From NCBI GenBank assembly GCA_019634955.1, contig JAHCAK010000010.1, positions 1-64,000 on the forward strand: 64,000 bases of DNA, written 5' to 3'. Source of the stretch: Burkholderiales bacterium. GTDB lineage: Bacteria; Pseudomonadota; Gammaproteobacteria; Burkholderiales; Usitatibacteraceae. The position numbers were made by a program, and so were the translations under genes. Below the pieces are notes generated by a model, which saw nothing but the letters and a program-made list of their open reading frames with translations, did no database searches and was not told the origin of the DNA. Shown here piece by piece: positions 38,572 to 40,494 of the stretch; position 1 is the first letter of the stretch; each line of letters opens with the position of its first letter.

Positions 38572-38847
38572 GTGAATTCCAAGCGAGCCCTCATCCGCTC
38601 GGCCGTGGCCGGGCTCGTCGCCGCCGGGCTGGGCCAGGCCCCTTCCGCGATCGCCAGCGACGGCGCGGCGCCCGCGGGCAAGGAGAAGTGCTACGGCATC
38701 GCCAAGGCGGGCCAGAACGACTGCGGCACGGCCACCCACGCCTGCGCGGGTCTCGCCAAGAAGGACAACGCGCCCGACGAGTGGAAGTACGTGCCCAAGG
38801 GCACGTGCACGAAGCTCGGCGGCAAGCTCAAGCCCCCCGGCAAGTAG
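38572..38847 (+). CDS. bufA: bufferin-type precursor peptide (DUF2282, BufA1-like)
   Basis: Secreted precursor of a copper-binding ribosomally made, modified peptide. 91 aa from GTG at 38572 with AAGGAGACC upstream. Residues 1-28 form a Sec signal peptide (basic NSKR, hydrophobic core, cleavage near AIA-SDG). The core has the four DUF2282 cysteines: Cys40 in EKCYG, Cys51 in NDCGT, Cys58 in HACAG and Cys79 in KGTCTK. In characterised bufferins the MNIO enzyme modifies cysteines of such a core into thiooxazoles that bind Cu. Here that is inference from the family and from the adjacent BufB and BufC. Confidence 0.93.
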
Positions 38848-38857
38848 CGGCGGCGCC

Positions 38858-39718
38858 ATGCCCGCGCGGTTCGCGCCCCGCGCGCCGCACCCCGCCAAGG
38901 CCGGCATCGGCCTGCGCACGGCCCACTTCGAGGCGCTGGCGGCGCGAAGCCCGGCCCTGGGCTTTCTCGAGGTCCACAGCGAGAACTACTTCGCCGACGG
39001 CGGGCCCGCGATCGCCTGGCTGGAGCGCTTCCGCCGCGACTACGCGGTGAGCCTGCACGGCGTCGGCGCCTCGCTCGGCTCGGCCGATCCCCTCGACGCC
39101 GCGCACCTCGACCGCCTCGCGCGCCTGTGCGAGCGCATCGAGCCCGCGCTCGTCTCGGAGCACCTGTGCTGGTCGAGCGCCGGCGGCGCCCATCTCGGCG
39201 AGCTGCTCCCGCTGCCGTACACCGAGGAGAGCCTTCGCCACGTCGCCACCCGCGTGACGGCGATCCAGGAGCGGCTCGGGCGCCCGATCCTGGTCGAGAA
39301 CGTGACCGCCTACGTGCGCTTCGCGTCCTCGACGGTGCCCGAGGGCGAGTTCATCGCGGAGCTCGCGCGGCGCACGGGCTGCCGCGTGCTCCTCGACGTC
39401 AACAACGCCTGGGTCAACGCGGTGAACCACGGCACCGATGCCCGCGCCATCCTGCGCGCCATCGATCCGGCCACGGTGGGCGAGATCCACCTCGCGGGCT
39501 TCGCCGCGACGGAGGACGGCCTCGTGGACACGCACGGCGCGCGCGTGGCCGCCGACGTCTGGGCCCTCTACGCCGAGGCGGTCTCGCTGCTCGGGCCGGT
39601 TCCCACGCTCGTCGAGTGGGACACCGATCTCCCGGCGCTCGAGGTGCTGCTGGACGAGGCGGCGCGGGCGGACGCGATCCTCGCCGGCGCGAGGCCGGCG
39701 CGGCGGGTGGCGGCATGA
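38858..39718 (+). CDS. bufB: multinuclear non-heme iron oxidase (DUF692/MNIO, BufB-like)
   Basis: Predicted to oxidise cysteines of the BufA precursor. 286 aa, TIM-barrel family. Metal-ligand motifs of DUF692 are intact in order: EVHSENY near 38, [11 protein letters not shown] near 65, SEHLCW near 100, LVENVTAY near 145, [15 protein letters not shown] near 178, EIHLAGF near 210, DTHGARV near 223, and LVEWDTDLP near 250. It starts 10 nt after bufA and overlaps bufC by 4 nt (ATGA), so the three products are made together. Confidence 0.94.
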
Positions 39719-40494
39719 GCGGCGCACCCGGCCTCGCGGCGATGCAACGGGAGTTCGCCGCTGCCGTCACGGCGGGCGACGCCGATGCGTTCGTCGCGCA
39801 CCTCGCCGGCGATCCGGGCCGCGCCCTGCGGCGCCTGGCGATCTACCGGCGCGCGATCGCGGCCAACCGGTGCGGCGCGCTTCGCGCGGCGTATCCCGTC
39901 GTCGCGCGCCTGGTGGGCGACGCGTTCTTCGACGAGGCGGCCCGGCGCTTCACCCATGCGTCGCCCCCGCGCGAGGCCGACCTCAACCGGTACGGCGCGG
40001 GGCTTCCGGCGTTTCTCGCCGGCTATCCTCCCGCGGCGGCGCTTCCATGGCTCGCCGACGTTGCCCGCCTCGAGTGGGCGTGGCACGAGTCGCTGATGGC
40101 AGCCGACGCCTCCCCGGCCGACTTCGCGGCGCTCGCCGGCGTGTCCGGGGAGGCGCAGCCGGCCCTGCGATTCGCGCTGCATCCGTCCGTGCGCCTCGTG
40201 CGGTCCGCCTGGCCCGTGCTGGCGATCTGGGAGGCGAACCAGGAGGGCCGGGACGGCACGGCCGCTCGCGACGAGGGCGCGGACGACATCCTCGTGTGGC
40301 GCGATGGCGCGCGGGTTCGCCTGGCCCTTCTCGGTGCGCCGGAAGCCGGCTTCCTGGAGGCGATCATGGCCGGCGTCACGCTCGGGGAAGCGGCCGATCG
40401 CGCCGGGCAGTGGGATTTCGCCCCGGCGCTTGCGCGACTGGCGGGGCTCGGGCTCATCGCAGGCTTCCACGCGGGGGACCCGCGTCCCGCCTAG
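39715..40494 (+). CDS. bufC: DUF2063 partner protein (BufC-like)
   Basis: Putative precursor-recognition partner of the MNIO enzyme, 259 aa. The N-terminal DUF2063 domain has RALRRLAIYRRAIAANRCGAL and AAYPVVARLVGDAFFDEAARRF, then DLNRYGAGLPAFLAGYP. The C-terminal half is a winged-helix-like region with LAGVTLGEAAD-type sequence. ATG at 39715 inside the bufB stop. No BufD/DoxX membrane gene follows; the next gene is convergent and the two stop codons interlock in a CTAG. Confidence 0.92.
   Translation: MSGAPGLAAMQREFAAAVTAGDADAFVAHLAGDPGRALRRLAIYRRAIAANRCGALRAAYPVVARLVGDAFFDEAARRFTHASPPREADLNRYGAGLPAFLAGYPPAAALPWLADVARLEWAWHESLMAADASPADFAALAGVSGEAQPALRFALHPSVRLVRSAWPVLAIWEANQEGRDGTAARDEGADDILVWRDGARVRLALLGAPEAGFLEAIMAGVTLGEAADRAGQWDFAPALARLAGLGLIAGFHAGDPRPA

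Follow-up and report, generated by a model that had tools for sequence, protein, structure and literature searches.

The DNA analysed here, a stretch of 64,000 nucleotides that we call the window, very probably carries a real, intact and ordinary bufferin operon of the Buf1 type within a betaproteobacterial genome. Positions 38572-40494 of the plus strand hold bufA, bufB and bufC, which belong to the expected families, run in one direction and are tightly coupled, and this three-gene pattern is no chance arrangement. A first-pass annotation had already read the locus as a bufferin system (Buf1/DUF2282), and sequence, predicted fold, synteny and selection all back that reading. Bufferins are a widespread family, to which the locus contributes another compact Buf1 operon, clean and in conserved synteny.

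The three genes and their products

The first gene, bufA (38572..38847, plus strand, 91 residues), encodes a Buf1/DUF2282 bufferin precursor; bufB (38858..39718, plus strand, 286 residues) encodes an MNIO enzyme (DUF692, MbnB_TglH_ChrH); and bufC (39715..40494, plus strand, 259 residues) encodes a DUF2063 and RRE-type partner protein (PME type 1). A 10-nt gap separates bufA from bufB, and bufB overlaps bufC in an ATGA. The first-pass annotation had placed all three genes and both junctions exactly to the base, and its families (a DUF2282 protein with Cys40, Cys51, Cys58 and Cys79, a DUF692/MNIO enzyme and a DUF2063 protein) are borne out by Pfam and NCBIfam.

BufA matches DUF2282 (Pfam PF10048) with an E-value of 5e-24 and 84.5 bits against a cut-off of 22.4. 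Its four cysteines, at positions 40, 51, 58 and 79, are invariant across 32 BufA sequences from diverse bacteria, as are G42, G47, N49, D50, W71, G77 and G84. By inspection the N-terminus is export-signal-like, having a basic start, a hydrophobic core and AxA at residues 26-28. The gene starts with GTG; we call this codon the start because ATG occupies the same position in all five syntenic loci of the same genus. The bufferin-precursor model of NCBIfam that matches is BufA2, and it falls below its cut-off (31 against 60), a score that would be expected for a Buf1 yet is no positive proof of one. The predicted structure of BufA is of moderate confidence (pLDDT 70) and carries none of our claims.

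BufB scores 344 bits against Pfam MbnB_TglH_ChrH (PF05114, E-value 5e-103), far above the gathering cut-off, and passes the NCBIfam equivalog NF050167 (MNIO_BufB), with 363 bits where the cut-off lies at 310. The NCBIfam models for HvfB and HvfC score below cut-off with the window proteins. BufB can be aligned with the solved MNIO enzyme 3bww and with TglH and MbnB through the ligand-type positions, and the residues H67, H102, E147/N148, D180, N182/N183, H211, D224, H226 and E253 are all present; these positions are of the type that binds metal in MNIO enzymes. By this alignment the multi-iron site of BufB is intact. D255 lines up with Asp249 of FonB, which has been proposed as the catalytic base of that enzyme (PMC13097082), and is a putative base in BufB.

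BufC matches Pfam DUF2063 (PF09836) with an E-value of 7e-24 and 84 bits, again far above the gathering cut-off. Sequence searches of the PDB, including a profile search, gave nothing useful for BufC, and it was only fold comparison that linked the protein to known structures. Its AlphaFold2 model has a pLDDT of 93.8, and the only Foldseek matches at E < 0.001 are TglI (8hi7, 8hci) and NGO1945 (3dee), both of them DUF2063/RRE-type proteins already known to partner MNIO enzymes. BufC is thus predicted to share the fold of these two partners.

Characterised relatives suggest how the three products would work together (PMC12452194, PMC13097082). In the cytoplasm the DUF2063-RRE protein BufC would present its substrate BufA to BufB, an iron enzyme that would turn the two central cysteines, C51 and C58, into 5-thiooxazoles; C40 and C79 would pair as a disulphide. 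Sec would export the modified peptide, which in the periplasm would bind copper present in excess. In relatives, the two central cysteines have been shown to carry thiooxazoles (PMC12452194). An adjacent DoxX is probably unnecessary for this modification chemistry.

Copper need not be the sole metal, since the heavy metals first described as inducing the Caulobacter homologues were chromium and cadmium. The products of bufABC might instead yield a metal or redox stress peptide with the same cysteine chemistry and a main ligand other than copper, as might serve under chromate, cadmium, gold or mercury-type stress. The Caulobacter homologues, the compact ABC operon among them, were found as chromium-responsive sigma-F genes (PMC3511200), and MerC fusions and gold-related loci have been noted among bufferins (PMC12452194). 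However, the thiooxazoles of the Buf1 peptide from Caulobacter bind Cu(I)/Cu(II), and the peptide aids growth in copper excess (PMC12452194); we regard a non-copper ligand as quite improbable. Copper buffering is the function that we prefer for the window locus.

Neighbourhood and upstream region

The operon is flanked by argB on one side and by a DUF4440 gene, then hslU-hslV, on the other. Five further members of the genus keep this order, argB-bufABC-DUF4440-hslUV (in one of them argB lies beyond the contig end), and it recurs in additional genera of the family. The public contigs that carry the same-genus loci are mostly from metagenome-assembled Betaproteobacteria/Burkholderiales, such as FeB_7 and TGS_PRO46. 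The window's genus has a single bufA; a tandem bufA pair is frequent at the syntenic locus in other genera of the family (loci L047, L048, L050, L051, L053, L054, L055, L057 and L059).

At the 3' end of the operon, bufC and the convergent DUF4440 gene terminate in one palindromic CTAG (40491-40494), their stop codons being mutually complementary, so there is no room for doxX between them. The junction has neither intergenic space nor a terminator. The absence of BufD from the locus, as first annotated, stands: no doxX adjoins bufABC and no space is left 3' of bufC. A BufD hidden between bufC and the DUF4440 gene is ruled out, there being no gap in the window or in most of the genus. Where other genera of the family do have a gap at this place, it holds a PilJ-domain gene and not doxX in one genome (G010), and doxX in two genomes of another genus (L053, L055). 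Beside the window locus we found none of the features of a full bufABCD locus, namely doxX, an ECF sigma factor gene, nrsF or GTAACC-N16-CGAA promoters. About 4 kb from bufC, on the minus strand at 44441-49888, lies a gene run that resembles a zinc-homeostasis operon. By inspection it comprises a Fur/Zur-like regulator, two CobW/COG0523-type GTPases and an ABC-type ATPase and permease; it also includes a DUF3299 protein, the only member confirmed by a model.

The compact locus can be lost. One genome of the same genus (G006) has a clean empty site, with argB about 145 bp from the DUF4440 gene; this site keeps the argB-side sequence and not that of bufA, and the genome keeps its C20-type locus (the second bufferin locus, described below). 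Another genome (G005) has neither locus. These two genomes would suit a decaying relic, made redundant by the C20-type locus. Yet bufA, bufB and bufC are all intact in the members of the genus that possess them, and the four cysteines and all metal-site residues are retained. Moreover, all three genes are under purifying selection, with dN/dS values of 0.16-0.32 overall (Nei-Gojobori, window against five same-genus relatives) and of 0.16-0.30 for bufA, 0.24-0.29 for bufB and 0.31-0.32 for bufC. We hold decay to be very improbable and read the compact locus as an intact operon.

Upstream of bufA lies a conserved extended -10-like element, TGCTATCAT (38517..38525, plus strand), which marks a candidate sigma-70-type promoter and begins 55 nt 5' of the bufA start. 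TATCATT is identical in all six same-genus loci, and the full element in five of the six. It resembles the extended -10 of a housekeeping promoter; since a simple scan upstream of bufA gave no match to a -35 element, we keep this reading conditional. The sigma-F motif described in Caulobacter, GTAACC-N16-CGAA (PMC3511200), is absent upstream of the window locus and of its same-genus counterparts (400 bp read in most). The only near match by bufA, at 38426-38451, has two mismatches and lies on the minus strand, in the wrong direction, and we rejected it as a sign of sigma-F control. Matches with two mismatches number 34 in the window against 26 expected, which is near chance level. No copper-type regulatory site was recognised at the window locus. 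Judged from these upstream sequences, the compact locus, which lacks the sigma-F promoter of its C20 counterpart, probably runs from a housekeeping-type promoter. Directly 5' of the candidate -10 the window also has a perfect 11-bp G+C inverted repeat (38488-38512), which is not kept in the other five same-genus loci.

A second bufferin locus and the DoxX gene

The genome, a 90-contig draft that is 96% complete, gives two matches each, and no more, to DUF2282, MNIO and DUF2063. The second set lies on contig C20, where bufA-bufB-bufC-doxX is divergent from nrsF (256 bits for its product) and the gene of an ECF sigma factor. A check of the genome for DoxX or a second DUF2282 gene thus finds both, in a second full locus. 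The only other doxX is a stand-alone gene on contig C38. The first-pass annotation had supposed that the membrane partner was either lost or encoded elsewhere. The doxX on C20 makes 'encoded elsewhere' right, though within a second full system. The description of the system as minimal fails at the level of the genome, which has a complete bufABCD on C20.

A doxX next to bufABC is in fact the less common state. It is present in 17 and absent in 48 of the 65 closest relatives that have a complete bufABC and enough downstream DNA, a set classified by hand in which Massilia and Duganella are over-represented. The BufB tree shows repeated gain or loss of doxX, with at least six changes of state on the count from well-supported branches and nine by parsimony. 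The earlier emphasis on the missing BufD is not upheld by these numbers or by the Caulobacter precedent: many bufABC loci have no DoxX gene beside them, and this is no unusual feature. Its absence is normal and recurs in the family, which makes DoxX unlikely as a required maturation factor. Any DoxX function that is needed could come from the gene on C20.

The promoter regions set the two loci apart. At the C20-type locus, GTAACC-N16-CGAA is present in both directions, and perfect, in seven of the seven genomes that possess the locus. Only three exact copies occur in the whole genome, two of them at C20. The third (L162, G000 C1:177227-177252) lies about 12 nt 5' of arsS, a radical SAM gene whose product exceeds the TIGR04167 cut-off; shortly before it come an ECF sigma gene and, by inspection, a possible anti-sigma gene. 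This third copy may be a chance match, as a reversed control pattern also matches once.

The enzymes differ too. The BufB proteins of the window and of C20 are 50% identical and fall in separate parts of the BufB tree, each within its own fully supported clade. They are old paralogues or separate acquisitions and do not stem from a recent duplication. Their divergence also bears on whether the compact locus and C20 are halves of a single split system, in which the product of the compact bufA needs the DoxX encoded on C20. Such dependence would fit the confinement of doxX to C20 and C38, and the finding that the other genus members with the compact locus (five of five) also possess a C20-type locus. 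We nevertheless consider it unlikely, given the distance between the two BufB proteins, the different upstream elements of the two loci and the many relatives that have bufABC with no doxX in the DNA examined.

A tentative reading, which we hold somewhat less likely than not, is that the genus keeps two bufferin systems with their duties split. A complete, sigma-F-inducible bufABCD would stand beside a compact bufABC, with a housekeeping-type promoter and no sigma-F site, that buffers copper at all times; the two BufB proteins are distant relatives. The compact locus may provide bufferin at a basal level, next to the inducible supply from C20. Because one genome holds both loci and their promoters differ, the pair offers a natural test of whether bufferins serve basal as well as stress copper buffering. 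What remains of interest is that a full locus linked to sigma-F occurs together with a compact one lacking the sigma-F site, and the difference is modest.

Comparison with known systems

The captophorin (fontiphorin) system FonABC and the oxazolin system HvfABC work along similar lines: an MNIO enzyme and a DUF2063 partner modify cysteines of a signal-peptide precursor, and the modified cysteines become metal-binding groups (PMC13097082, PMC12452194). Their precursors are built of EGKCG repeats, whereas BufA of the window is a four-cysteine DUF2282 domain.

Similar loci are found in the Oxalobacteraceae. Massilia, Duganella and Telluria have bufABC with no adjacent doxX in nearly all cases examined, and their precursors are 53-63% identical to BufA over full-length matches (higher over partial ones). 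However, argB, DUF4440 and hslUV do not adjoin these loci.

Caulobacter crescentus offers a parallel in layout. Its CC2907-CC2906-CC2905 operon encodes DUF2282, DUF692 and DUF2063 proteins and has no DoxX gene (PMC3511200). It shares with the window locus the compact ABC form, the gene order, the lack of DoxX and a genome with an additional ABCD locus. In Caulobacter, 5'RACE has mapped a sigma-F promoter for the compact operon, whereas this motif is missing from the window locus. The other Caulobacter locus, CC3254-CC3257, consists of bufABC and DoxX beside sigF and nrsF (PMC3511200). It matches C20 in its genes, its divergent sigF-nrsF and its GTAACC-N16-CGAA in both directions, and is the counterpart of the C20 locus and not of the window locus.
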